64,000 bases of DNA, taken from positions 1,736,001 through 1,800,000 of the forward strand of contig JAGKQI010000098.1 of NCBI GenBank assembly GCA_018806915.1. The letters are read 5' to 3'. The stretch is from Phytophthora colocasiae (lineage: Eukaryota > Oomycota > Peronosporomycetes > Peronosporales > Peronosporaceae). Positions 11,876 to 60,329 of the stretch are shown here, one piece after another; within the stretch, counting starts at the first letter, position 1; each line of letters starts with the position of its first letter. The notes under the pieces are model-generated. The model saw only the letters and a program-made list of their open reading frames with translations, was not told the DNA's origin and made no database searches. The translations under genes were made by a program, and so were the position numbers.

Positions 11876-13588
11876 ATGTTTTCGAGCAGCCATCGAGGTC
11901 GCTCTCATGTGCGTGTTTGGGTGCGCCGCAACGTGTGGCTTGTGGCGGCAGTAACGCTCGTGATCGTCTATTGCGTCTTTATGGTGCGTACGACCATGTG
12001 GGCGCACGCGTTCGAGGCGCAACAGGAACGGGAGCGAGCGCAGGAATCAGAAAAATTGACTCGAGATGGTGACGCTATGAAGGAGGCGCTTGCTGTGCTA
12101 AAGGAGATGGGTGCAATCAGAGGGGAAAGCACACATGAACAGGCAGAAGAACAGGCTGAAGAGGCTGTGGAGGATGGACGAGAGCAGTTGGTCAAAGGAG
12201 AAGGAGAACAGGAGGCTGTTGGTGAAGAGGAAACGCACAATGCTCATGCTGCAGCGACAACAGGGCCACGACTCCGTACAGTGGAGGAAGAAGACACAGT
12301 GGCGTATGATGATAAAGTTCCTCTTGAAGATGTTGGAGATATTCCGAATGTTGGTGCGACGATAGCGACTGAAGTGGATACAACGACTAATGCACCTGCA
12401 GAAGACAAATGGACGGCGTTGGACCTCTTACCTGCAGCTGCAGAAGCAGAGAATGAAAAGGAAGAAGTAACAATCCCGCTGATAGAAACACAGTCTACAG
12501 AGAACAAGGGGCCTCCACCGTTGACACCGAGGACAGGTGATCATTTGTGGACTGGAATGGACCAACTACCTGTGGCCGGTAATGAGAATGGTCTCGAAGC
12601 ACCCGTTCCTGAAGTGCCGACAACTATTGCACAGGTGCAACCAAGTGAGTTCAAGTCGAGACGATTTGACAAGTCCAGGCTGAAGTTGGAGTCTTCGAAT
12701 GCGTCAATTCCGTTCGAAAAGAGACACCATGTCATTTTCGGCTATAACGCTACCTTGGCGTATCTTAAACTATACATGAAGCCTGCAGACTCAAAGGAAG
12801 AGCTTTTCCTGTTTTTCACCTGCAGTGACAGCAAAGGAGGTCGAGATGACTGGAATCCCAATTGTGCGACAGCACGTGAGAAGGTGTACGCTACATTTGC
12901 CAAGTCGCCGTCTACAAATCGCCTTGTAACGATTCACGCAGGCCCTCGTGATGATTGGCGGGGCGGCAACGCCTTCACAGACGATGATGATCTTCGTCTT
13001 AAGGCTGTTCCTACCCTAATGCGTTGGGATGGAGGCGCACCCGGTGCTTTGCGCTCAACCTGGGGTGTACTAGTGGACAATTCGATTCTTTATGATCCGT
13101 TGGTGCGCTACCTGTTCCGCAATGGCGATAAACAGGACAAATTGTTGGCGAAAGCAGAAGTCGAGACCAAAGAGATCATCACATTAAGAGGTTATGCACA
13201 GTACCGGACCTTCATGGAAACGTACGCGCGCAACGGAAGTGTTTATCCGCTATTCATGATGATGGTGTCGGGCCGGTTCGAGCGCAACAACCGTCTCTGG
13301 TGTCCCTGGTGTCGGCAGTCTGAAATGCCAGTAGAATACGCGTTCTACGCCTACTCACCGCCTAATGCCAAGCTGGTGCTGGTGGAAACCTACGACAAGT
13401 ACAGCGAATGGCGAAATCCTGAAAACGAGTTTAAACAAGACCCCCAGCTCTCGATGAAGGGCGTACCATGGTTTTATCGGGTATATCCAGGCCCACCTGG
13501 CGCACCTCTCACATACCAACGCGTCAAGAAGAAATTCTACATCCTCGAGGCCTTGCAACAGGTTTTCCAGGACTCCAGTGAGTTGTGA
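11876..13588 (+). CDS. Membrane-anchored tandem thioredoxin-like protein 2
   Basis: The product is 570 aa from ATG 11876 (MFSSSHRGRS). A membrane span lies at residues 20-38. A long acidic, low-complexity stalk (about 45-280, rich in E, A, T and P) precedes the two thioredoxin-like domains. In the first domain the active site reads WNPNC (326-330), so the first cysteine is lost. The cis-proline loop AVPTLMRWDGG is retained. The second domain has WCPWC (475-479) and GVPWFYR. The stalk is absent in paralogue 1. This is one of four tandem copies; the missing first cysteine suggests domain 1 is now a binding or structural module. Family function is inferred from TRP14-like proteins. Confidence 0.77.
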   Translation: MFSSSHRGRSHVRVWVRRNVWLVAAVTLVIVYCVFMVRTTMWAHAFEAQQERERAQESEKLTRDGDAMKEALAVLKEMGAIRGESTHEQAEEQAEEAVEDGREQLVKGEGEQEAVGEEETHNAHAAATTGPRLRTVEEEDTVAYDDKVPLEDVGDIPNVGATIATEVDTTTNAPAEDKWTALDLLPAAAEAENEKEEVTIPLIETQSTENKGPPPLTPRTGDHLWTGMDQLPVAGNENGLEAPVPEVPTTIAQVQPSEFKSRRFDKSRLKLESSNASIPFEKRHHVIFGYNATLAYLKLYMKPADSKEELFLFFTCSDSKGGRDDWNPNCATAREKVYATFAKSPSTNRLVTIHAGPRDDWRGGNAFTDDDDLRLKAVPTLMRWDGGAPGALRSTWGVLVDNSILYDPLVRYLFRNGDKQDKLLAKAEVETKEIITLRGYAQYRTFMETYARNGSVYPLFMMMVSGRFERNNRLWCPWCRQSEMPVEYAFYAYSPPNAKLVLVETYDKYSEWRNPENEFKQDPQLSMKGVPWFYRVYPGPPGAPLTYQRVKKKFYILEALQQVFQDSSEL

Positions 13589-41080: not shown

Positions 41081-42279
41081 CGGCTTATGGGAGAAACTCG
41101 GAAATACTGCACGATGATACTTTTGATCTGGGATAACCTTCGAGATGGGGAGTCAAGATTGCCTTCTCTGTTGCTCCACCATGTTTACTTCTGTACATGA
41201 AGCATCAGCACTGCAGCGGTCTACGCGATCCCCACATGCATTCATGTGCAACCACACCAAGGAGCGACGATCTTAAAGACTTCGCGAACTCGAGTCTTAC
41301 TAGCCCAGCGCTTTCATATGAAACTTCAAGACTGGAATTCCACCATTTGATGCCGTGACGTTTTCTCCAATTCAATGGAGCTCCATCAAGTTGCCCTCAA
41401 CCGTCAAGCCTTCAACGCCTTGTTTTTATTCATGCATTGTAGGTAAGAAAGAGCCGGTTCTGGAACTGTACATGTCATTTGTGACTGGCCAAGGATTTCA
41501 TCTTATGACCGTAGCTCGGTACAATACTGTACTTACCGTAAGGGATACGACAGTAAAAAATACTGCGCACTGTACGACATCCAGACGATACTTAGCTTAG
41601 AAGGAGAGAAAGAGTTATATAAAAGATCATCTTGTTCTTCTTCTTTTATGTGACCGGTATTGTGGAAACCGGTCAAAATGTCATCTGGTTAATCCGGCGA
41701 TTGTACGTATTTCACAAAGAGAGTCGACGTATGTAAAAATGAGTTGAGATCAGTACTAGTAGTACTGTACATGTTTCATTAACCTTTCTCTAATTAAGGT
41801 TGGCCGTATACATGTAAGAGCCGGATTAGACATTCTGGTAGTACCGGTACAGTATATACCGGTACTACATGTACACTACGCGACGTGGTCGTGCTTTGCA
41901 TGTTTGCGACTGCCGAATGGGCAGTCGTAACGTAAAAATGAGTTGACTGTAAGCTTTCTCTAATTAAGGTAGGCCGGGTAGTACCAGTACAGTAAATACC
42001 GGTACCACATGTACACTACAGTAATGCGTGAAGTTTACGCGACGTGGTCGTTGCTGTTTTGCTTTGCGACTGCAGAATGGCAGTCGTACACGGCAGAATG
42101 CTACAGCCACATAAAAAGGGAGCATGTGATATAGAATTGTGTATACATATTGTTATCAACCAATCAAATCGCCCGTCGCAGCGTTCAATCGCTAAAATAA
42201 AACTCCACCAGCCACTCGATAAAACGGAGGTATCCAAGCCACTCGATAAAACGGAGGTCTCCACCAGCCACTCGATAAA
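41081..42279. other. Repeat-rich intergenic region without a gene
   Basis: No convincing gene. The part from 41730 to 42080 is built of duplicated pieces (see separate entry). The rest, 41081-41730, shows only short unsupported ORFs. Confidence 0.5.
41730..42080 (+). repeat. Imperfect direct duplication with internal palindromes
   Basis: The segment CTTTCTCTAATTAAGGT then T/A then GGCCG occurs near 41781 and 41953. It is followed in both copies by an element with GGTAC/GTACC symmetry (ACCGGTACAGTATATACCGG in copy 1), then ACATGTACACTAC and GCGACGTGGTCG. GTAAAAATGAGTTGA occurs near 41735 and 41932. The copies are about 130-170 bp apart and partly diverged. Confidence 0.65.
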
Positions 42280-45552: not shown

Positions 45553-45606
45553 CTAGGAAATCCCTCTGGCATGCCACAACTTCGTGAGGTGAGTAGAGCG
45601 TTCACT

Positions 45607-45665
45607 GTACTTACTGTACCGTAGTATCGGTGTCATTGACACCGATACTACGGTACAGTAAGTAC
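45607..45665. repeat. 59-bp near-perfect palindrome
   Basis: Arms of 29 bp (left begins GTACTTACTGTACCGTAG) are separated by a single base. A second palindrome (GACACTTGACA/TGTCAAGTGTC around one C) follows at 45669-45691. The inner part, GACACCGATACTACGGTA, recurs near 47417-47435 beyond the neighbouring element, so the two sides share a repeat. Confidence 0.85.
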
Positions 45666-46037
45666 ATTGACACTTGACACTGTCAAGTGTCACCCCCCTC
45701 GGGTCGCCAAATCAAATGATAAGGAAAAGTGCAAGGTGCTGGTTATGGATGGGACAACGATTGCGCTACTAATGCTGACTCTAATCTTTGTGAATGTGTC
45801 TATCAACGACGTCGTCGTCCCAGGAAACTTCTCCTGCGCTGTCATCTAGCCACGACAAAGCTTGTAAGGCATTAGCCAGCTCTTCGTCGATTTTGTCTGC
45901 CCCTACATCTTCGTTTGAAAAGTCCGTGCGCTCGTCGAACACGTCGGTAGCGTTTTAGTTGCGCAGTCTTAGTTTTAGCAGCCATTTCCAAAATGTCAAC
46001 CTTCTTTGACTTCCAGCGTCTAATAACACGTGTTTTA

Positions 46038-47063: not shown

Positions 47064-47639
47064 TTAGACTGATATGTCGTGCTAGCTGGGTCGATTCCAG
47101 GCCACAACGTCCGAATCACGACCCGCATTTCTCGGGTTTCGTACAGACGGAGTGCAGCAGCCTTGAAAGCGAAAGTCTCCGACGTCAGCTTGAGCTGCGT
47201 AGGTTTCCGGCCTCCGCCTCGCCACGACACCCGCATTCGAGTCCTTGTTCGCCGGCTTCTTCTCTATTCTGCGGTTGTTCTGGTTATGCTGCACTGGCTT
47301 CAAGGAACTCGGGGCTGACACTTAACAAAACGGTGCAAATCCTACTTGTCCAACCCCCAATACACAGCTTTCATTGGTCAATATAGGGGGGTGACACTTG
47401 ACAAATGCGGACACTTGACACCGATACTACGGTATACCGGTACCTACTCCCACACCAGCATCGTAAGCAACGATGTCAAGATAAAACTGGGATGTGATGC
47501 CTGGTCGGAGTCCGACTCGGACGTGCTGCACACCCAGATTGTACTCTCGAAAGAAAAGAAGAGAACACTGACTGTTCTCTTCTTTTCAATGGGCGTCCTA
47601 GTGTCGTTTTCTCCTCTCTGTGAAGCAAATGTCTTGTGG

Positions 47640-49251: not shown

Positions 49252-51488
49252 CTACTCTGCCTCATCATCAGCTTCTTCAGCCTGAAGCCGGAGTTCCCGG
49301 CGTGTCATTTTACGCCTTCCTGCTTCTTGGCCCGGGCGTCTCAGCACAATTCGCTTCCCTAAGGTCGCTGGAATAGCATCTCCAGCGTCGAAGTCGTCAT
49401 GCCATATCTCAAAGCAGGTTTTGGCCACGCCCTTGTACTCCCTCCGTATTTTGTTGCATAACCAGCATTTAGCATCATCCACAGAGCACCGCTCGCACAA
49501 GAAAGTCGTCGCGTATGACTTCTTCTTCCTGTCGGTCCGAAGCAGAGCACAAACTTTGCAACAGCGCTGGCGGCGCTTTTGGACGTTGGAAACGGTAACC
49601 CAGTCTTCCGACTGCTCTAACACATGCGTAAGTCGGACCGGAGCACGCTTGCGCTTGGAGGTGGTGGGTGGAGGTGTTGCCACTACACCCGAAAAGTCTT
49701 CAGCCTTCAATTGGAGGAGCTGGTTCTGAAGCACCCCAAACCATTTCCGACGGCCCATAGGTGTAGTACCAGCGATTTTTGCTGCTTCTGTGTGAGAGAT
49801 ATAGGAGTTCACGAGGACCAGGTCGACAAAGCCTAGAAACAGCCCTTTGTAGTACTTCTTGAATCTTGTAGAAGTCTGCAGAGAATAGGCCTGGAGGCGG
49901 AGTTGGTCATGAACATCAACTCCTCCCATCCAGCCTTTGTAGTCATTGACTGCGGTGGGGCACGGCACGGAAACGGCACCAACTTGTTTCACCTTCCTTT
50001 GAATAGACGAAGCGGTCATCACAGCCCCGGTGCAAAGGTAATGGACCGGTTTGCGGTCCCACCAATGGAACGCAACCATTGATGGGATCGCGACAGAACG
50101 GGAAAAGGTAAATGTTCCGCGAGGAATATTGGCAGGCCGTGTTGCACTCTTCACCTTCAGGTTCTTGTCCAGTCCCAAACGGTTCACCATTACTGTACCC
50201 ACCACGTAGATGTTCATTTTGAGAAGCTCGACGGCGAGGAGAATGGAAGAGTAGTACCGGTCTACTACAACTGCATGCCAGCGATGACGCTCGTTCTGAG
50301 CAAGAACGATTCTCAGGTTTCGAACAACCGCCGCTGCTCCTGTCTTGTGGTCAAATGTGGAGCTGCCATCTTCCTCGGTGTTGCGCTTGCCGGCGTACAT
50401 CTCAAACCTGGTAAGTTACGCCATAAAATGCCAGTCAGCAGCTAGATGGGGTAAGTTACGACATAAATAAACGTACCTATGACAATATGCGGTACGTGAG
50501 TCACATGTCATGAACATCTTCGTCCCATAGCGGTGCGGTTTATCTGGCATAAACATTCTTGTGGTGTTCCGCTTAGACGTTGCAGGAAGAACGCCTTCAT
50601 CAAACGAAAAAGACGCCTGGTAACGACCAGCCCTCAAGGAAGCGTTGCTGCACCTTAGTGATGACCGGTCGGAGCTTCCAGAGCTTGTCCCGGTTCCTCT
50701 CACTCTGATTGTCTACGAAATGTAGATCCCGCAGGATATCTTGGCATCTGTTGCGTCCCATGAAGTGGCCGAAGCTTCCGGCTGGAACCGCTCCATCCGC
50801 CACCATTGACCAGTGCGACCGAAAGTTCTTCTGCGGGCACAACATCCGGGCGACAAGTAGGCCAATTACATGCAGGATTTCGTGTGTTTGGTATGGTGTC
50901 TTCGCCTTCAACCGTCGCTGAATGTTCTTGAGAGTCTCCTGCCGACGGTCCCCTTGTTTTGCTTGCCGTCTCTGAATTTCTCCAGCTCGCCGGTCAACTT
51001 GCTGTAGGGCGTACACGTTCGACTCGTAGTTGATCATCACCCACATGGATTTGGGCATGAAATAGAAGAACGTCAAAAGCGGTGAGTGGCACAGTCTGCG
51101 CAGCTCGCTGACGGGCTGTGCTTGCTCCATGTTGAGTCCTGGATAAGCGTCCACATCCGTCTCGTAAGAAGACGACACAGGCGTCCACTCTGTGCCACGC
51201 AGCGCGTCCTGACGCTGTTGTACGCTGCGTCTGTCCAGAGCGTCCATCTGAAGAGAGGAGATATACGCCTCATCCATATCCGCAGCGTCGCCGTCAGAAA
51301 TGACATCGTCACTGTCATCATCTTGCCGAGCGTTATCGGTACCTTCTTCCGAATCCTGGTAGGCTACGCCGTCGCTCTCACTTGAGCTGAAACTCTCGTA
51401 CAGGCTGGGGTTTTCATCGTCCGGTACAAAGTTGATGTCCTTTTCAGCTTTCAGTGGGTGGCATCGACGTGGACGTCTTGATTCTCCA
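49252..51488 (-). pseudogene. piggyBac transposase, main part (split, frameshifted)
   Basis: Minus strand from 51488. An acidic, serine-rich region (SFSSSESDG...) leads to a DDE_Tnp_1_7 domain: SPLLTFFYFMPKSMWVMIN, LHVIGLLVARMLCPQKNFRSHW, and after a one-base frameshift near 50612, ASFSFDEGVLPATSKRNTTR. A 69-bp intron (50476-50408) with GTACGT and CCAG borders joins CHR to FEMYAGKRN. The core continues with VVVDRYYSSILLAVELL and DYKGWMGGVDVHDQL, carrying catalytic aspartates. The tail is a cysteine-rich domain (CCKVCALL, CERCSVDDAKCWLCNK) typical of piggyBac end-binding. The frameshift alone should inactivate it. Confidence 0.87.
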
Positions 51489-51948
51489 TGTAACGGGGTT
51501 ACACGTACAAGTGGTTGTACCACTTGTAACTCTAACAGTTAGGATAACTGTTAGAGGTTGGAAATGGGCCTCAGACCTTGGTGTGCTGTACACATCAATG
51601 GATACATGGGCGAACCACATTATTGGATGGTTCGTGTGCATTTGTGCATATTATTGGTAGAAAGTAACGGATTTCTACCAATCACTGAGCAGAGTTTCTG
51701 CCAACCACACGTTGGCAGACCCTTTAGAAATAGATAACAAACAGTTTTAGGAGGTCCATAATTGGCTTATGCCAAATTCAATAACAGTTCTCAATTTACG
51801 GTATTTTGCAGTTTAATTTAGTTATATTTGATTTAATTATACTTATTTAAATAAGTATACTTAAATTAAGTCTATTCTAATTGCACGCTTCCTCATACAC
51901 GTAAGTGCACGTGTACGCCACCTAATAGGTCTAGGTAGACCCATTACA
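51489..51948 (+). repeat. 5' LTR of gypsy element 2
   Basis: 460 bp. It contains several hairpins: TACAAGTGG/CCACTTGTA (51506-51528), CTCTAACAGTTA/TAACTGTTAGAG (51530-51556), a pair with ATTGGTAGAAA arms, and TCTGCCAAC/GTTGGCAGA. Confidence 0.93.
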
Positions 51949-51997
51949 CCTGGTAGCACTTTGTAGTCCGTCCCACGACCGACTGCTGTTCGTTCGT

Positions 51998-52984
51998 ATG
52001 GAGTCATACGAACGCGGGGTAGAGAACTCCCCAATGGATGAGGGATCCGCTGGGACCCCTCAAATGTCCGTGACGCGCACGGACTGCGCCCACCTGTCCG
52101 TTCCAGAGTGGGAGGCTCTCCAAAGACTCTCGCGAGTCATTGGAGAGGCAGCGGTAGCTACGATGCTTCGTACGCTATCGCCGACAGAGCAACATGGTGT
52201 TGCTCTGGGGTACATTGTTAAGGAGCAACGAGATGTTGCTGCCTCGGTGGCTTCCCCGAAGCCACGCGTGGAGTCGTTGAAACTCCACGTGAGTACCTAC
52301 ACGGGGAAGGAGGACGAGACCCTCCTTCGTTGGCTTGTCGAACTTGACACAGCCGTTGCGGCTCGACGTATCGTCGATCCGATGTCGAAGGTCGCGTTCG
52401 CCATGTCATGTCTTGGCGGACGTGCGAGGAGTTGGGCCTATGGGCGCCGACTCTCGGATCCTACGTGCTTCGGCACGTACGAGGTGTTCAAAGAGGAGCT
52501 CAAGCTTGCGTTTGAGCCCCCGAAGAACGAGTTCAGATCGAGAGCGGAGTTTCTCGATCTGCAACAGGGCAAGGATGATGTTCACACCTTTGCCCAGCGT
52601 GCTCGATACTTGGTATCGAACATAGTGGCCAACCCGATCGACGAGGCGACCAAGGTCGTCACGTTCATGAAGGGACTAAGAGATGGTCCCGTCAAAACAT
52701 ATCTCTTCCGAGAGTATCCGAATACTCTCGAAGAGGCGATCAGCCTTGCGATGCAAGAGGAGTTTAGCCGACGTCAAGCTAAACTCCATGCGAACGCGCC
52801 GAAGCCGGTGCGTCCTGTTGTGAAGACGGGAGGTCCGGAACCTATGGACCTCTCGAGTGCTACGACTGCTGGTCAACAGCAGCGTAGGAACAGCAAGGTT
52901 CGATGTTACAAGTGTAGTAACATCGGTCACTATGCACGCGAGTGCACAGCGGGCGGGCGTTCAAAAAACGCCAAGGACCAGTAG
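51998..52984 (+). CDS. Gag of gypsy element 2
   Basis: A 328-aa frame from ATG 51998 (MESYERGVENSPMDEG). The capsid-like region (residues 90-240) has LKLHVSTYTGKEDETLLRWL, LGGRARSWAY and FRSRAEFLDLQQGKDDVHTF, a classical retrotransposon gag pattern. The zinc knuckle is CYKCSNIGHYAREC (CX2CX4HX4C) near residue 305. The frame ends at TAG 52982-52984, inside the stem of the frameshift signal. Intact in this copy. Its coding sequence is full of hairpins, for example at 52185-52207. Confidence 0.88.
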   Translation: MESYERGVENSPMDEGSAGTPQMSVTRTDCAHLSVPEWEALQRLSRVIGEAAVATMLRTLSPTEQHGVALGYIVKEQRDVAASVASPKPRVESLKLHVSTYTGKEDETLLRWLVELDTAVAARRIVDPMSKVAFAMSCLGGRARSWAYGRRLSDPTCFGTYEVFKEELKLAFEPPKNEFRSRAEFLDLQQGKDDVHTFAQRARYLVSNIVANPIDEATKVVTFMKGLRDGPVKTYLFREYPNTLEEAISLAMQEEFSRRQAKLHANAPKPVRPVVKTGGPEPMDLSSATTAGQQQRRNSKVRCYKCSNIGHYARECTAGGRSKNAKDQ

Positions 52985-53817
52985 GCGCGGGGCGTCCTAC
53001 TGGTGATGCAGTCTCGCGTGTCGAGCTTGGACACGCGACGATGAGGACTGCTGCCCCCAGCGAGAAGGTTTCTCGCTGTAAGCTGCAAGATGACAAGCCA
53101 AACCTTGTCATCCTGAACGTGATGTCGAAGAGAGTAAACTCTCTTCGTGCCCTAGTGGACTCGGGCGCGTCGAACCACTTTGTTCGACAGGGAAGTCTTC
53201 GAAGACTTGACTTCGAAGAGGCCGACACGCCTCGCAGCGTGTTGGAGGTGCGGTTGGCAACGGGTGCCACCGTGAGGACTGAGAAGCGCGTAGTCCGTGT
53301 GCGCTTCTCTTACAAACGAAGGACGTTTGTAGAAGATCTTATCGTCTTGGATCTAGACGATAAGTTCGACTTGGTATTAGGCATGCCGTGGCTTGCACGG
53401 CATGACCCGGTGATCAACTGGGAGAAGCGTACGCTCGTACGCTTCAACAACACATGCGCGACAGAGAGCGATGGCCCAGTCAGTGCTGCACATGCACCGG
53501 CCGGTGCATGTGGATCCCCAGTTGAGGCAGCAGCGGCCGCCGCTGCCTCCGATCGCCGCCGGCGACCATCAACGACTCCGGGAGTCGTTGTGAGAAAATG
53601 TGTGTCGACTCAGAAATCTGAGCCGAAGGGTCGCGGTCACATGAGTGATGGTCAGGTGAATGTGAATCACCTGACGCGTAAATATCTGAATGATGTTTGT
53701 CACATGAGTGATGGTCAGGTGAATGCGATTCACCTGAGAGAAGGTAAAATACCGGTATTACCGGTATCCTTGGAGGTAGTTCAAGCCTCCAAGGGTCGCG
53801 CCGACGACGTCGCATAA
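52942..53817 (+). CDS. Protease region of gypsy element 2
   Basis: This 291-codon frame is -1 to gag and entered through the frameshift signal. The retropepsin core has SLRALVDSGASNHFVRQGS (the D-S-G triplet), a flap-like middle and DLVLGMPWLARHDPVINW. The C-terminal third has a near-duplicate repeat, HMSDGQVN with HLTRK or HLREG, at about 53639-53740. It ends at TAA 53815. The next frame (RT) lies +1 and overlaps it by 38 nt, so another recoding event or a one-base mutation is needed to reach RT. Confidence 0.82.
   Translation: MHSGRAFKKRQGPVGAGRPTGDAVSRVELGHATMRTAAPSEKVSRCKLQDDKPNLVILNVMSKRVNSLRALVDSGASNHFVRQGSLRRLDFEEADTPRSVLEVRLATGATVRTEKRVVRVRFSYKRRTFVEDLIVLDLDDKFDLVLGMPWLARHDPVINWEKRTLVRFNNTCATESDGPVSAAHAPAGACGSPVEAAAAAAASDRRRRPSTTPGVVVRKCVSTQKSEPKGRGHMSDGQVNVNHLTRKYLNDVCHMSDGQVNAIHLREGKIPVLPVSLEVVQASKGRADDVA
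52963..53004 (+). promoter_or_regulatory. Programmed -1 frameshift signal between gag and protease
   Basis: The heptamer A-AAA-AAC (52963-52969) is in the gag frame (TCA AAA AAC). A 7-nt spacer follows, then a 9-bp stem, ACCAGTAGG (52977-52985) with CCTACTGGT (52996-53004), and a 10-nt loop. Slipping back one base enters the protease frame exactly (AAA CGC CAA). The heptamer type and spacing match known retroviral -1 sites. Confidence 0.8.
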
Positions 53818-54205
53818 AATTCGGGGAACCGAAAGGCGTGCGTCAGCTCTGGGAGCTGACGCCACTGGCGCGTCGCCGCTAGTTCTGGGAACTAGCGATC
53901 GTGCATCAGCTCCGGGAGCTGATGATGCGTGTACAGGCGAACATTCGCTGCTAGTTCCGGGAACTAGCGATCGTGCGTCAGCTCTGGGAGCTGACGATAC
54001 GTGCATAAGCGAACACTCGCTAGCGCAGGAAGCTAGCGAGAGCACGTCGACTCCGGGAGTCGACGATGCGGTTGCTTCATCCGCTCCGGGAGCGGATGGA
54101 GGCGCAGCGGTTCAGGGAACCGACTGCGCGGCAGGAGGTGCTGGCGGTTGCAAACGCCCAGCACCCGAACAACCTGCGTGCTCACGTGCAGCAGCGCTGC
54201 ACGCG
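53818..54205 (+). repeat. Degenerate tandem repeats between protease and RT
   Basis: The open frame here repeats SAPGADDA/LVPGTSDRA-like units. At the DNA level, copies of TCAGCTC..GGGAGCTGA and CTAGTTC..GGGAACTAG (each a hairpin) alternate about every 40-60 bp. The stretch is in frame with RT and probably encodes a linker. Confidence 0.7.
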
Positions 54206-56353
54206 ATGAGCGGCACTCAAGCAGGGCTTGATAGTGCGAGTCAGCGGAAGGAATCCGCTGACGATTGCGATAACGTCCCGTCCAAGGTGCGATGCCTTGG
54301 ACGTGGAGCACCTGGAGCCGGGCTCCACGGTAGATCTTCGCGGCGCAAGCTCAGGGAGCTGCGCGAGTCTCATTCCGGGACTGAGACGGGTGTGTCTGCA
54401 GTGCAGACACCGAGTGTCGAGACGTTGAACGTCTTGACACGTACTGGTACTGGGTTACAGTACCAGAGGATGCGGTTGGAGAATCCGCCGACGAGTGCGT
54501 CGGCGTTGACCGCACTTTCAACGATGAGTTGGAAGCGCTTCGCGCGAGACTTGTACGATGGACGCATCGAACAAATTTGCATTCTCTCGGATATCGAGAG
54601 AGTGGATCGCGAAGCCGAAGAGCTGAAGCAGCTCGTCGTCGATGGCATCACTGAGGGGGATGACCCCCTCAGTGCGAAGACCAAGAAGCAATGCTTCGAG
54701 GAGCAGAGTTGGGACTCGTTGAAGTCGAGTCCCTATTACGAGATTCTGCGGGAGTACAAGGATGTACTCCCGGACGAGATTCCTTCGGAGCTTCCGAAGG
54801 ATAAGGGCGTACAGCACGAGATTGATCTCGTGCCGGGCACGAAGTACTGTGTTACACGGCAGTGGCCACTGCCGCGTGAACAAGTGCAAGCGATCGACGA
54901 CTTCTTTGAAAGTCGTCGTCTTGCAGGTCAAGTGCGGGAGTCAAAGTCCCCGCACAGTGCCCCAACGTTCTGTGTTAAGAAACCACAGGGCGGCTGGCGC
55001 GTCGTTCATGCGTACAACAAGTTGAACGATGCGACGATACCGGCGCAGACGCCGATACCGCGAAAAGATGTTATCATCGATTCGATGGCCTTGAGCACTA
55101 TTTTCAGTGCTCTAGATCTGCGTGATGGATTCTATCAGATCCTCATGCGTGAAAGGGACATCCCTCTCACAGCGGTAAGCACTCCAAGCGGTATGCTTTG
55201 GGAGTGGCTCGTCATGCCACAGGGGCTTAAGAACGCCCCTGCGACGTTCAATAGATGCGTGACACATCTATTGCGCTCGGTGCGCGACTTCGCACCGAGC
55301 TACTTCGACGACGTGTTCGTCCACAGCCGGGCTGTGAACGGGAAGACGGACATTGAGATGCACAAGGTGCATCTCCGGAAGCTGCTAGAACTTATGAGGA
55401 AACATAAGCTCTATGCGAACCTGAAGAAGTGTATCTTCGGGGCGAGCGAGATACCCGTGCTGGGGTGTCTCGTGGGGAAAGACGGCGTGCGCCCTGACCC
55501 AGAGAAGGTCAGAGTGATCAATGAATGGCCCACGCCATCCAATGTGAAGGAACTGAGGCAGTTCCTTGGGCTTGCCACGTACTTGTGCAAGTACGTGGAC
55601 AACTATGCGGGCAAGATTCGCCCGTTGTCACAGCTTCTTAAGAAAGAAGCTGAGTGGATTTGGACGACCGAGTGCGAGGATGCATTCGGTGCAGTCAAGC
55701 AGGGCTTGACTGAAGCGCCGATCTTGGCCGTGGCGGACCAAGATCGTCCATTCCACGTAGTGTGTGATGCATCCGACTTTGCAATCGGATGTGCATTGAT
55801 GCAGCACGATCACGAAGGGCGTGATCGTGTGGTCTACTATCAATCGCGTCAGCTGAAGCCAGCTGAGCGTAACTACCCCGTACATGACAAGGAGCTCCAT
55901 GCCATGAAGTATGCACTCGCAAAGTTCCGAGTGTATCTACTTGGGAGTAGACCGTTCGTGGTCTATACAGACCACGTATCATTGCGTACGGCGATTAAGT
56001 CGCCGCACATCTCGCAACGTATGGCGAGATGGTTGTCCTTCTTCGCGGAGTACAACTTCCGGGTGGAGTACAAACCCGGAAGACTCAATGTAGTGGCCGA
56101 CACGTTATCGCGTCGACCTGACTATGCGGAGACGGTCGACGCCAACGCTGTTGGCGTCGTGAGGACAAGTGTGCCGTCGTCAACGTTGATTGACGACGTG
56201 AAGAACGCGTATGCAAGGGATGCAGACGCGAAGGGGCTGCTGGAGTTCCTCGCAGCACCTTCCGACGTGGCACGTCGGAAGCTAACCCTCATCTTCGAGC
56301 TCGTGTACACCGCTATCGTGTACACGAAGGCCTACTGTTGTACAGTGCAGTAG
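54206..56353 (+). pseudogene. Pol of gypsy element 2: RT and RNase H (frameshift at end)
   Basis: The frame is open from 53780; the first ATG is 54206. RT motifs: LPDEIPSELPKDKGVQHEID, KSPHSAPTFCVKKPQGGWR, IFSALDLRDGFYQI (first Asp) and YFDDVFVHS (the catalytic box, F in place of I/V). RNase H follows with FHVVCDASDFAIG, DKELHAMKYAL and YTDHVSLR, then the linker ending NVVADTLSRRP. Near 56284 the sense moves to the -1 frame (HLRARVHRYRVHEGLLLYSA), and the old frame stops at 56353. One base is missing or added there, so this copy cannot make full-length Pol without help. Confidence 0.85.
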
Positions 56354-58155
56354 ACGACAATGCGGATCGCATTGTCGTTCCGAATGATCATGACCTCCGG
56401 TTGAGGATCATGTTCGAGTATCACGATGCCCCCACGGCAGGGCATCCGGGTCGTGAGAAGACATACACTCTTCTCACGCGTGACTTCTACTGGCACCACC
56501 AGTACAAGTGGGTGCGCAAGTACGTACGTGCTTGCGAGGTTTGTCAACGCGTGAAGCCTGCGCAGTTCTCGCAGGCTCCTCTTCAATCACTACCGACTCC
56601 GTCGGAGTGTTGGCAGTCCATGTCCATGGACTTTGTCTTCGGTCTTCCGCCTGACAGCAAGCGGAGGACGGGTATCGTTGTCTTTGTGGACCGATTCAGC
56701 AAGATGGTTCATCTTGCTGCCGTCCCGGCTACTGTTACAGCCGCGCAGACTGCGCGACTGTTTGTTGACATGGTGTTCAAACACCATGGCATGCCGCTCG
56801 ACATTGTGTCGGACCGTGATCCACGCTTCACAGCGCGGTTCTGGCAAGAAGTGTTTACACTTCTTGGTTCACAGTTATCAATGTCGACTGCGGATCATCC
56901 GCAGACGGACGGACAGACCGAACGTGTCAACCGTGTATTGGGCGACACGTTGAAGAGCTACGCTCACTCGTTCCCGCATTGGAGCGAGTGCTTGCCGATG
57001 GCAGAGTTTGCCATCAACAACTCGGTGCATGCCTCGACAGGGCATACACCGTTCTACGTGAACGCCATGAGGCATCCACGATTGCCGAGCATGCTCGGCG
57101 GAGTAGCTTCCTCCTTAAGTGGGGGAGGATCTACGGTTGCGTCCGAACAACCGCAGAATGCAACTGATAGCAGCACACTATCAGCTGCGGTGACGCGTGC
57201 GACGTCTCGTTCGAGCAGGAACGAGCGCGCGATGTCTGTGCCGGGCACAGACATGAGAGATGATAGCGAGCAGGCAGGGCCTGCTGCTGACAAGGGCGAC
57301 AAGCTGAAAGGACTCAGCTCGGGTGCGCTAGACTTTGTCCAGCGAAGACAAGCCGTCATACGGTTTGTCCAGGATGCTATCGCAGCTTCTGTCGATCGAC
57401 AGAAGCTGAACGCTGATAATGTTGGTAGGGGCAACATAAATGAATTCAAAGTGGGTTCATTAGTTTTGTTAGCTACACAAAACCTACCTAAACATGCAGT
57501 GTCTGACTTTGGAGCAAGCAAGCTTGCTCCAAGATTCATTGGGCCGTTCAAAGTACTTGAACGGCATGGTAACGCGTACCGGCTGGACATACCGTCCAGC
57601 ATGAGGCTCCACCCGACCTTCTACGTCGGGCGGTTGAAGCCGTACGTGCAGCACGGACTACCTAAGGTTGGTAGTCCGACTGAGGAGTGCGAGAGGCCTG
57701 GAAGGCCTTCTCGAGACCGTCGACACGGTCGATCAACCGGTTCACTCTCGTCCCAAGACCGGACGAGAGGTTCGAGGCAGTCTGAGCTGCCTCGCAGACC
57801 TCAGCACGGAGGACACGAACCTCCTGCTTCAGAGCCGCTATCTCAGCGCTCTGTGTCTGCTCCAGCGCAGCAACTCGATCGTGCAGGGCACGATCGTCAT
57901 GGTCATAGCGTTGACCATGCGGAGGGAGTGTTCCCACCCCCTCCGCCGCCGTTGCGCGACGCGCGTGGAGCGATCCGCTGGATTGTGGAGCGGATCGTGG
58001 CTCATAAGAGAACGAACTCTCAAGGGGTTCGTTTTCGTATTCGTTGGAGAGGATTTCCTCCCCATCGAGATACATGGGAGCCGCGGAACGTCCTGATGGA
58101 GGATGTTCCGGAAATGGTGAGGGCGTACGAAGCCCACCATAACTTGCAGGGTTAA
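56286..58155 (+). CDS. Integrase with chromodomain, gypsy element 2
   Basis: The frame continues from the RT break to TAA/TAG at 58155 (first ATG 56338). The zinc-binding region is HPGREKTYTLLTRDFYWHHQ and CEVCQRVK. The catalytic core has SMDFVFGLPPDS, IVSDRDPRFTARFW and ADHPQTDGQTERVNRVLGD (D, D, E). After a variable linker comes a GPF/Y-like module (ASKLAPRFIGPFKVLER). The C-terminus is a chromodomain: WIVERIVAHKRTNSQGVRF then WRGFPPHRDTWEPRNVL. Chromodomain integrases target the element to heterochromatin marks. The last 490 bp are also coding on the opposite strand. Confidence 0.87.
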
Positions 58156-59212
58156 ACCCTGCACGAGGAGTGCTGCGGTCAGCCACAGCACTCGGAGCTT
58201 CGCGTGGCACAATACGACCACGGAGTTCCTTGATGTGATCGGGTACACGGACGACCGTGTACCCCAGGAGATCACTTTCGGTGAGACGTGTTGCCAAGGG
58301 TGGGCAACACGGACAGGGTGTGCCAAAGGGAACGGCACATGGGATCCCCGCTTCCATGGACTGATCATGGAGGCGTTCACACTTACCACGTGTAGTGTAA
58401 GTGTAGTAGCGATCGCGAGCCGCAGCAACGCGCTCGCGATATGCCTTCGGGTCTTTGTTGAAGTTATCAACAAAGGCGTTCCACGACTGACAAAGTGCCT
58501 GCCACTCGGGCACTTTGCTCTTGCGCGAAGTCTTCTTCGCTGCATAGTATCGGAGCTCATGGAAGAGCCCGATATAGTAGTCGCGTCTTTGAGTCTCGGA
58601 CTCAAAGACAACCTTAGCGGCGACGTCGTCGTCGTTGATACTGTTGCATGAGTACAACAGTATCGGGTTCGGTGGTGAACTTGCACCGAACCGGTCATGG
58701 ATCTCAGCCTCAGTAGGCATCCATGGTGTGCGCACTGGCGGATCAGTGCGCGGTGCAGTGAGCGCCCTCGACATGGGGGACGCTTCATCATCACTGCGCG
58801 GACGCTTCGAGCTTGAAGCGTCCGAGGCCTCATCACCACGAGGTCGTCGAGATCCCACGGGTGGGTCTGACGTGTCTTCAGACGAAGACACGGGAGCGGG
58901 AGCCTTGACATCAACCTCCCCCTCCTCGACATCCTCCTCGTAGTCGAGGATGTCTTCGTAGTCCTCTCCAAAGAGTTCTTTGAGAGGGACAGCAGGATTC
59001 TTAATCTCTGCTAGAGAAGAAGACTTCTTCTTCTTCTCATGCTTCTCCTAATGGAGAGCATGGTACTTGGTGACAGAGAGCTTCTCTGTCGGACCGCTGG
59101 AAGCAGCAGTGCTAGTGGGCACTGCTGAGGTCGTTGTTCCTGCTGCAGAGGCAGCAGGTGAGGCTTGCGCGTCCGCAGAAGCGGACGGAGACGTGGGCGT
59201 TGGCGAGTCCAT
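57662..59212 (-). pseudogene. Antisense ORF of gypsy element 2 (one in-frame stop)
   Basis: From ATG 59212 (MDSPTPTSPSASADAQASPA) a frame of 516 codons runs antisense to pol, broken only by TAG at 59050-59048 (codon 55). The N-terminus is alanine/serine/threonine-rich, then lysine-rich and acidic. A middle region has RRDYYIGLFHELRYYAAKKT and PEWQALCQSWNAFVDNFNKD, both rich in aromatics. A cysteine cluster (CPCCPP) follows. The C-terminus is a heptad coiled coil (VAALEQTQSAEIAALKQEV, GLGTRVNRLIDRVDGLEKAF). It overlaps the end of the integrase gene by about 490 bp. I do not recognise the family; some plant gypsy elements also carry antisense genes. Confidence 0.7.
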
Positions 59213-59313
59213 TGCGAAATGAACTCGGATTTCTCTCGGGAACTTGACGGTCTTGTCAAGTTCTGTTGATTGACGTATCGAGACCGATGCGTCGAATCTT
59301 AACGGGGGGATGG

Positions 59314-59773
59314 TGTAACGGGGTTACACGTACAAGTGGTTGTACCACTTGTAACTCTAACAGTTAGGATAACTGTTAGAGGTTGGAAATGGGCCTCAGA
59401 CCTTGGTGTGCTGTACACACCAATGGATACATGGGCGAACCACATTATTGGATGGTTCGTGTGCATTTGTGCATATTATTGGTAGAAAGTAACGGATTTC
59501 TACCAATCACTGAGCAGAGTTTCTGCCAACCACACGTTGGCAGACCCTTTAGAAATAGATAACAAACAGTTTTAGGAGGTCCATAATTGGCTTATGCCAA
59601 ATTCAATAACAGTTCTCAATTTACGGTATTTTGCAGTTTAATTTAGTTATATTTGATTTAATTATACTTATTTAAATAAGTATACTTAAATTAAGTCTAT
59701 TCTAATTGCACGCTTCCTCATACACGTAAGCGCACGTGTACGCCACCTAATAGGTCTAGGTAGACCCATTACA
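59314..59773 (+). repeat. 3' LTR of gypsy element 2
   Basis: This is the 460-bp partner of 51489-51948, with about 99.6% identity by my reading (two differences). It implies a fairly recent insertion, though not as recent as gypsy element 1, whose LTRs look identical. Confidence 0.93.
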
Positions 59774-60329
59774 CTCCAGCTGGGGATTCATCGTCTGCTT
59801 CGTCAACGCTTTCAGCACCAGATGCCCCGGACAATAACTGCAATCCTGCGGCAGCTTCTTCCACTTGGGACGCATCGAGTACCAGGCCTTCTGGGGGCAA
59901 GTCAAATGCCCGTGTAACGGCAGACTGCGAGAGGTCAGGCTCTGACTCACTAGAAGAGCCGAACAAGTCGTCCATGGTGCGTTGAGAAAGCTGTATGCTG
60001 GTATCAATCTGCGATGCTCTAACGCCTTCTTCTGTGCTGCTGTCACTCAGGCCGTTCGCCTCGTTGTCGCTCTCTCTGGGCCCGTCCTCGTCGATCAATC
60101 CGGCCTTCAGCGCATGCGCGACAACTGCATCCTCACCGACAAAAATCTCAGCACTACCGGGGGCCGAGTAACTCCATTCCGTCTGGAGACCACTAGGTTT
60201 TTTAGCAGTCCATCCAGCCGCTCGAAGCTGGCGCCAAAAGTGGCCGAAGTCTATATTGCGTGCAGTGGTGGTTGTGGCAGCGGCTGTGGCAGCGGCCTTC
60301 CCCCGACGACTGGACCGGATACGCGCCAT
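59774..60329 (-). pseudogene. piggyBac transposase, N-terminal part
   Basis: From ATG 60329 (MARIRSSRRGKAAATAAATT) the frame is open to the gypsy junction. It contains FGHFWRQLRAAGWTAKKPSG, a common N-terminal motif of oomycete piggyBac proteins, then an acidic serine-rich region. At the junction the codons SPAGE continue in frame at 51488 (SRRPRRCHPL) once the gypsy element and one CTCCA copy are removed. The insertion therefore hit an intact frame here. Confidence 0.85.

Follow-up and report, generated by a model that had tools for sequence, protein, structure and literature searches.

Short perfect hairpins tile a family of Phytophthora colocasiae retrotransposons and are conserved in the transmitted lineage

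What keeps short perfect hairpins along the whole length of a retrotransposon? The question is raised by an element at positions 51489-59773 of a 64,000-nucleotide (nt) stretch of the Phytophthora colocasiae genome (GenBank assembly GCA_018806915.1, contig JAGKQI010000098.1, positions 1,736,001 to 1,800,000, forward strand), referred to below as the window. The element is a young long terminal repeat (LTR) retrotransposon. Its 460-bp LTRs differ at 2 positions and have TG...CA ends, and a CTCCA duplication is present on both sides. Pfam domains were identified for gag with a zinc knuckle, protease, reverse transcriptase (RT), RNase H, integrase and a chromodomain. The order gag, protease, then RT-RNase H ahead of integrase, together with the 5-bp target duplication, is that of Ty3/gypsy-type elements, and this filing is by Pfam domains and their order rather than by RT phylogeny. 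The chromodomain (PF00385, E 8.6e-12) lies at the integrase C-terminus, at residues 548-599 of the integrase open reading frame (ORF), as is typical of chromovirus-like elements. No second RNase H model was found in the four sense ORFs (Pfam, E <= 0.001).

The original prediction, made from the letters of the window, was that the LTRs, gag, protease, RT, integrase and an antisense ORF are all tiled with hairpins. The nine arm and loop examples that it gave were all in place and were exact reverse complements. A 24-bp palindrome placed at 53487-53510 lies in fact at 53489-53512. About twenty hairpins with arms of at least 6 had been counted in 54810-55830, and a recount gave 20 non-overlapping ones (loop <=10), 17 of them with an arm of at least 7. 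The standard density count used non-overlapping hairpins with an arm of at least 7 and a loop of at most 10, with window bases 1-697 left out. The element with one LTR contained 132 hairpins in 7,825 nt (16.9/kb), compared to 3 in 3,986 nt (0.75/kb) for the ORFs of gypsy element 1, 38 in 46,805 nt (0.81/kb) for 4684-51488 and 3 in 4,227 nt (0.71/kb) for the right flank of the element. The predicted absence of tiling from gypsy element 1 and host genes was therefore borne out (0.7-0.8/kb). All regions of the element were dense (arm >=7), with 13.7/kb in the LTR and leader, 23.2/kb in the spacer between protease and RT and 13.2-22.8/kb in the coding stretches. Hairpin spans including loops cover 48% of the element (arm >=6, loop <=12), or 42% under a stricter score. 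Arm length peaked at 9 in 184 hairpins of both LTRs and the interior (loop <=12), with 41, 29, 22, 50, 27, 11, 3 and 1 hairpins for arms of 6 to 13, respectively, many of the 6-bp arms being expected by chance. Regular spacing was rejected (start-to-start median 46 nt, standard deviation (SD) 28, broad histogram), as was a shared loop motif of the kind expected of packaging signals, the loops of 1-4 nt being diverse. The codon phase of the hairpin axes was mildly uneven (classes 44/34/23) and not decisive.

Each ORF was compared to 200 synonymous-codon shuffles, with overlapping hairpins counted. The density was 12.2/kb in gag (shuffle mean 0.74, maximum 3.04), 22.8/kb in the protease ORF (1.59, 5.71), 17.7/kb in RT (1.08, 4.19), 15.4/kb in integrase (1.05, 3.85) and 15.9/kb in the antisense ORF 57838-58971 (1.27, 4.41), which lies mostly in a non-conserved frame. 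Fourteen control ORFs of the window had 0-1.94/kb and none of the 14 exceeded the maximum of its own shuffles. Chance and composition were rejected by the shuffles and the control regions, and in the window the density equalled neither that of synonymous-codon shuffles nor that of the other gypsy element. The suggestion that codons are chosen so as to form hairpins, with protein motifs kept, was also upheld, as the shuffles abolished the hairpins and conservation in up to 120 homologous proteins was undiminished at stem codons. For RT/RNase H residues 166-640 the mean identity was 0.857 at stem codons (n = 135), 0.868 at loop codons (42) and 0.830 outside (298). For the less conserved RT residues 1-165 it was 0.581 (50), 0.416 (12) and 0.545 (99), respectively. 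Residues of stem codons are thus as conserved as others, which indicates that the hairpins are made mostly by codon choice.

The tiling is a property of a family. In the genome (92.5 Mb, 105 contigs) the same RT, with 90-98% identity, is encoded by at least about 60 loci, that of the window among them; this is a lower bound, with 62 of 4929 first-look candidates scored. All 30 loci of this family, termed family A, that were taken from the RT search (window and 29 others) were tiled, with 12.2-15.2 arms of at least 8 per kb. Domain-based sampling of 30 of 150 listed loci gave nine of family A with 7.6-13.0 such arms per kb (two overlapping RT-search loci), eight of a sister family B with 2.7-4.9 and 13 other gypsy-like elements with 0-0.3. 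Six further loci comprised three of family A (13.6-14.3), one of family B (3.6) and two others (0). The pattern predicted from one copy is therefore found at all family-A loci examined, is weaker in family B and is missing from the other gypsy-like elements sampled. Family B is similar to family A in gene order, antisense ORF included. Named RT relatives among 120 listed were mostly from Phytophthora, and those found in other oomycete species were proteins, so the hairpin counts cover the DNA of one genome. Loci L007, L015 and L019 were considered as divergent family-A subfamilies and rejected, as they carry rearranged or foreign segments, and they were left out of the 27-copy analyses of third positions and stem pairs. 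By eye, a segment next to the protease in L007 resembles gag in reverse orientation, and L015 has foreign, hairpin-free sequence at the integrase end. Loci L064-L066 were rejected as older copies, being 97-98% identical.

Most changes confined to a single copy (private changes) arose after insertion, and those common to several copies have passed through the replicating lineage. Over 5.1 kb in 30 copies, private changes were nearly equal per column (352/1424 in stems, 999/3659 outside), while changes present in at least three copies were found at 19/1424 in stems compared to 173/3659 outside. At third codon positions of pol in 27 copies the shared changes were 9/491 in stems and 53/703 outside (Fisher p = 5e-6), and the private changes 77/491 and 120/703 (Fisher p = 0.58). 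When the window copy was used to define the stems, the shared third-position changes were 7/463 and 55/731 (p 1e-6). Shared changes at non-stem first and second positions amounted to 20/1432 (1.4%) compared to 1.8% at stem third positions, so that stem third positions are constrained about like amino acids. The spacer and its surroundings, in 14 length-matched copies, had 3/304 shared changes in stems and 27/462 outside, with 22/304 and 51/462 private ones. Conservation of the stems acts in the transmitted lineage and not after insertion.

The stems are also uniform in predicted stability. The energies of 108 stems with an arm of at least 8 had an SD of 2.68, compared to 3.83 ± 0.23 in random stems matched for length and pooled composition, and none of 100 random sets was as low. 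Arm length drops with rising GC content (rho -0.29, p = 0.002), the longer arms being richer in AT, and the outer pair is G/C in 87/108 stems compared to 412/789 for inner pairs. The outer 5' base was C in 59/108 stems of family A and G in 21/27 stems of family B (L062). Six strictly non-coding stems (GC 0.35) had longer arms than 93 coding ones (GC 0.58), at 10.3 and 9.2 (p = 0.03), with energies of -11.4 and -13.2 (p = 0.24). Nine spacer stems equalled the coding ones (arm 9.3, energy -13.1), and a looser non-coding class that includes antisense-coding and spacer DNA did not differ (arms 9.5 and 9.3). Similar energies despite longer AT-rich arms, with no arm above 13, fit better with an optimum of energy than with one of length, the stems compared being few.

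The two strands behave alike. Non-overlapping stems with one mismatch (n = 31) had A-C in 12, G-T in 10 and all others in 9, and pairs adjoining stem ends (n = 142) were G-T in 22 and A-C in 21. An apparent signal of antisense wobble (A-C 27, G-T 13, overlapping stems) was rejected, as it was gone after overlaps were merged. Folding z for family A was -5.5 for sense and -5.3 for antisense (20 windows of 200 nt, 12 mononucleotide shuffles each), and for family B it was -1.0 and -2.4, with the antisense strand better. The mean minimum free energy of the sense strand was -88 per 200 nt compared to -53.5 and -55.5 in two controls. With no preference for G-U over A-C and equal folding on both strands, the requirement or cause looks symmetric, concerning both RNA strands or DNA. 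Positions turn over. One of 15 gaplessly alignable pol hairpins of family B lies on a family-A axis (0.15 expected), and between family-B subgroups (about 90% identical) 5/17 pairs with a shared second state were fully compensated.

We conclude that many local hairpins, rather than particular ones, are kept in the transmitted lineage, and the folded shape itself seems to matter. The maintaining force is probably selection rather than mutation bias. Our tentative preference, held at less than even confidence, is that selection keeps many local hairpins, wherever the sequence allows, to avoid sense-antisense duplex formation and silencing in this chromodomain Ty3/gypsy element. Short, locally folding Watson-Crick hairpins with an arm of about 9 and a predicted RNA energy of about -13 kcal/mol would occupy, with their loops, over 40% of the length. 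Sense and antisense RNAs would each fold into many small same-strand hairpins and anneal poorly to each other. Such folded RNAs may be poor substrates and targets for the double-stranded RNA and small-RNA silencing of Phytophthora transposons, and each stem would be too short for Dicer. The antisense gene would explain why antisense RNA should be made, and new hairpins could arise by template switching at those already present. That the benefit is keeping sense and antisense RNA apart and evading silencing is a best guess by analogy. Phytophthora transposons are described as giving abundant 25/26-nt small RNAs (PMC3804510), and strong structure throughout Q-beta RNA is described as preventing a dead-end duplex of template and product (PMC5362092). 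Taken to its full extent, the proposal becomes one of genome-wide hairpin armour, in which synonymous sites are selected about like amino acids, both RNA strands are held in Dicer-proof hairpins, silencing is escaped, the property is inherited and switching supplies new hairpins; in that form it is possible but doubtful.

Several points weigh against this preference. In nine copies of family B, changes shared by at least two were 24/326 in stems and 313/2944 outside (p = 0.07), and private changes were also fewer in stems (23/326 and 318/2944, p = 0.035). The 3' LTR region had shared changes (at least two sequences) at 2/181 in stems and 9/376 outside, a comparison of low power, and private changes at 38/181 and 134/376; the set comprised 11 sequences, the window and 10 of the 12 fetched, two non-matching ones being dropped and one being poorly aligned. 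Stems were defined by column majority or on one copy, so that some polymorphic pairs are lost from the stem class; this bias was judged unable to yield a fourfold to fivefold effect. The null model behind the narrow spread of energies takes no account of codon constraint, and the same test in family B was not significant (0.11; 27 stems). The longer strictly non-coding arms would also fit unconstrained growth by copying. Strand symmetry is fitted equally well by DNA-level causes. Hairpins lie everywhere, while antisense transcription over the whole element is putative. Ten spacer hairpin units present in at least three copies kept 98.9% of pairs, with 7/9 pairs changing on both sides, and their covariation exceeded shuffles (7 pairs, 4/500 as high; 25 cells, 0/500), but these units were selected by a pattern with at most 3 arm mismatches and the covariation is thus partly ascertained.

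The rival that survives best, though unlikely, is mutational, and the original prediction had listed it as templated correction of quasi-palindromes. During reverse transcription or replication, a nascent strand that meets an imperfect inverted repeat would fold back or switch template, one arm being copied from the other, and over many cycles perfect hairpins would fill the element while stem mutations were erased by copying. Signature events do exist. In a survey of 74 hairpins in 39 loci, the window's included, 6/96 loop variants were exact inversions of the window loop, among them AAGGG to CCCTT (a 5-nt loop, one copy) and GCG to CGC; two of the six concern 1-nt loops and could be plain changes. 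In one copy 17 bp of an arm had been rewritten from its partner and the loop was inverted, and in another a 9-bp arm was extended to 13. Ten of 139 clusters of at least three changes, at four sites, match a nearby reverse complement by at least 5 nt beyond the change, compared to 0 reversed, 2 complemented and 2 forward controls, and 129/139 clusters are without such an explanation. Both kinds of event, the exact inversion of a spacer and the homogenisation of arms among close copies, are marks of template-switch mutation. Copying would also account for strand symmetry, turnover of positions, hairpins in every region and the longer strictly non-coding arms. Against this stand the numbers, a handful of events compared to 1,351 private column-by-base changes in 30 copies (three rearranged ones included). 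If template switching maintained the tiling, compensated changes of both sides of a pair should be roughly as frequent among transmitted changes as those of one side. In 824 window stem pairs and 27 copies, a small sample, three pairs had a shared compensated state (four if one seen only in other copies is counted) compared to 18 single-side states in at least three copies, and for this reason template switching is treated as a rival and not as the lead. Two of the three, 53977/53995 and 53980/53992, lie in one spacer unit possibly exchanged whole (12 copies each), and the third, 54319/54321, was found in 3 copies. At 54223/54225 the copies had C-G (18), A-G (6) and A-T (3), a two-step path via a mismatch. 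The spacer of 14 length-matched copies had no shared compensated pair and one in a single copy. Copying alone predicts neither uniform stability nor G/C outer pairs, and the untouched state of other gypsy-like families is left unexplained unless the RT of the hairpin family is unusual. Template-switch mutations thus occur at the hairpins but seem too rare to maintain the tiling.

Selection for a structured sense genomic RNA alone, as in RNA viruses, would act through compaction, dimerisation, particle packaging, RNA stability or translation control, and is improbable. The original prediction had named structured genomic RNA as a cause, and selection on structure is supported by the very stable local folding of the sense strand and by the scarcity of transmitted changes in stems. 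In the 3' LTR region the two shared mismatches within stems are both G-T, as a sense-strand requirement would have it. The bias towards G-U expected of a sense-only version was not seen, either within stems or as an extension at stem ends, and the loops of 1-4 nt hold no common motif readable by a capsid protein. Selection on, or use of, DNA structure is slightly more improbable again. Hairpins of single-stranded complementary DNA, or cruciforms, would affect chromatin, silencing marks or integration. Strict Watson-Crick pairing, strand symmetry and the presence of hairpins throughout the LTRs and non-coding parts agree with this, but stems in integrated copies decay about as freely as other sites, so that DNA structure is not maintained there. 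Extrusion from duplex DNA is also inefficient for arms as short as about 9 bp. Chance, composition or an assembly artefact can be practically dismissed given the shuffles, the copies on many different contigs and the normal neighbouring DNA.

Both-strand coding was the third cause proposed, and a conserved antisense frame does exist. Read leftward from 59212, it ends at 57662, has a single in-frame TAG (codon 55) in the window copy and overlaps the integrase ORF on the opposite strand by about 490 nt. The product has 84% identity to a predicted protein of P. citrophthora and 54% to one of P. cactorum, and matches the family-B antisense ORF weakly (24-27% over about 90 residues, E 7e-5 to 6e-4). 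ORF 57838-58971 lies mostly in a different frame from this gene, and its C-terminal part also occurs in gene models. Neither TRP28 nor another Pfam domain was found in the antisense parts scanned (57662-58891, ORF 57838-58971 and the family-B ORF). Hairpins are about as dense in the LTR, gag, RT and spacer, outside the antisense frame, and both-strand coding therefore cannot cause the whole tiling.

The element was compared to known systems. Chromodomain Ty3/gypsy elements, including Chronos of oomycetes, are alike in gag, protease, RT, RNase H, integrase, chromodomain and 5-bp duplication, and the tiling along the whole length sets the present element apart. Chronos is described as having an additional archaeal-type RNase H (PMC5348765), which the present element lacks by the Pfam scan. 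The plant elements Retand, Grande and RIRE2 have an antisense ORF in the same place, between pol and the 3' LTR; the antisense gene here has relatives in other Phytophthora and the weak family-B match, and is without TRP28 in the scanned parts. A term search of the available text of the Retand paper (PMC11963269) returned neither "hairpin" nor "secondary structure". Viruses with genome-scale ordered RNA structure (GORS), for which shielding from host defence is proposed (PMC9784701), are likewise structured along the whole genome beyond coding needs, as the mean z of -5.5 indicates for the element. It differs in having discrete, perfect, short, strand-symmetric hairpins and in being a DNA-integrated retroelement. 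RNA templates of Q-beta-type phages are alike in strong local structure that separates new and template strands (PMC5362092), but replication differs and the analogy is one of working principle. Quasi-palindrome template switching is described in yeast (PMC8604942) with arm homogenisation and spacer inversion, both of which were caught among copies of the element; there they are single mutations in genes and not a force tiling an 8-kb element. No report of a hairpin-tiled retrotransposon came up in literature searches of open-licence PubMed Central, most subscription papers falling outside this scope. An inverted-repeat survey of 118,019 genomes, published in 2026, mentions none in the portions of its text consulted, and urges that such repeats be studied in transposable elements (PMC13155455).

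The family is an extreme natural case of structure shaping synonymous sites, and its many copies let selection be separated from decay. Should the structure help the element to escape RNA silencing, it would represent a new counter-defence of transposons; should RT make the hairpins, a new mutational force would be at work. The finding also bears on the abundance of gypsy elements in oomycete genomes.

The features of the element are listed in Table 1. In many other copies long open frames continue from the spacer through RT, which suggests read-through there. The stretch 53600-54240, spacer included, ranges from 425 to 729 nt among L001-L030, apparently via gain and loss of hairpin units. Rfam predicted no known structured RNA over 51400-59900 at gathering cut-offs, and one scan of IMG/VR found no relatives.

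Table 1. Features of the retrotransposon and selected hairpins, in window coordinates.
Feature	Position	Strand	Basis
Target-site duplication CTCCA, 5' copy	51484..51488	.	Sequence
5' LTR, 460 bp, TG...CA, seven hairpins of arm 7-12	51489..51948	+	2 differences from 3' LTR
Putative primer binding site, beginning with TGG, 2 nt past the LTR	51951..51966	+	Inferred from sequence
gag ORF (Retrotrans_gag, Ty3_capsid, CCHC zinc knuckle), 13 hairpins	51998..52984	+	Pfam
Protease ORF (RVP_2), 19 hairpins counted from 52985 on	52942..53817	+	Pfam
Spacer, related hairpin units in array, core TC[CT]GGGA, covarying arms	53818..54205	+	
RT/RNase H ORF, 37 hairpins	54206..56353	+	Pfam
Integrase ORF (H2C2, rve, Tf2-1-like SH3, chromodomain)	56338..58155	+	Pfam
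Antisense gene overlapping 3' end of integrase ORF	57662..59212	-	Open part 57662-58891; protein matches
Putative polypurine tract	59304..59313	+	Inferred from sequence
3' LTR	59314..59773	+	
Target-site duplication CTCCA, 3' copy	59774..59778	.	
Example LTR hairpin, arm 12, loop 3	51530..51556	.	
24-bp perfect palindrome	53489..53512	.	
Hairpin with loop GCG in 14/30 copies, CGC (exact inversion) in 9/30	53715..53737	.	
Hairpin with arm 8 extended to 17 bp and loop inverted in one copy (L028)	54185..54203	.	
Hairpin with 5-nt loop exactly inverted in one copy (L010)	55805..55829	.	
Longest perfect arm of the element, 13 bp, no loop	57383..57408	.	

Outside the element a host thioredoxin-like gene is located at 11876-13588 (+), and its product is 97% identical to a P. 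citrophthora protein, which puts the host close to that species. Isolated long perfect hairpins were found at 47553-47587 and 41838-41868 (arms 15 and 12, respectively). A 61-nt perfect palindrome (arm 30, loop 1) with a second directly after it (arm 12, loop 1) occupies 45606-45692, and the pair is perhaps a small hairpin transposon.

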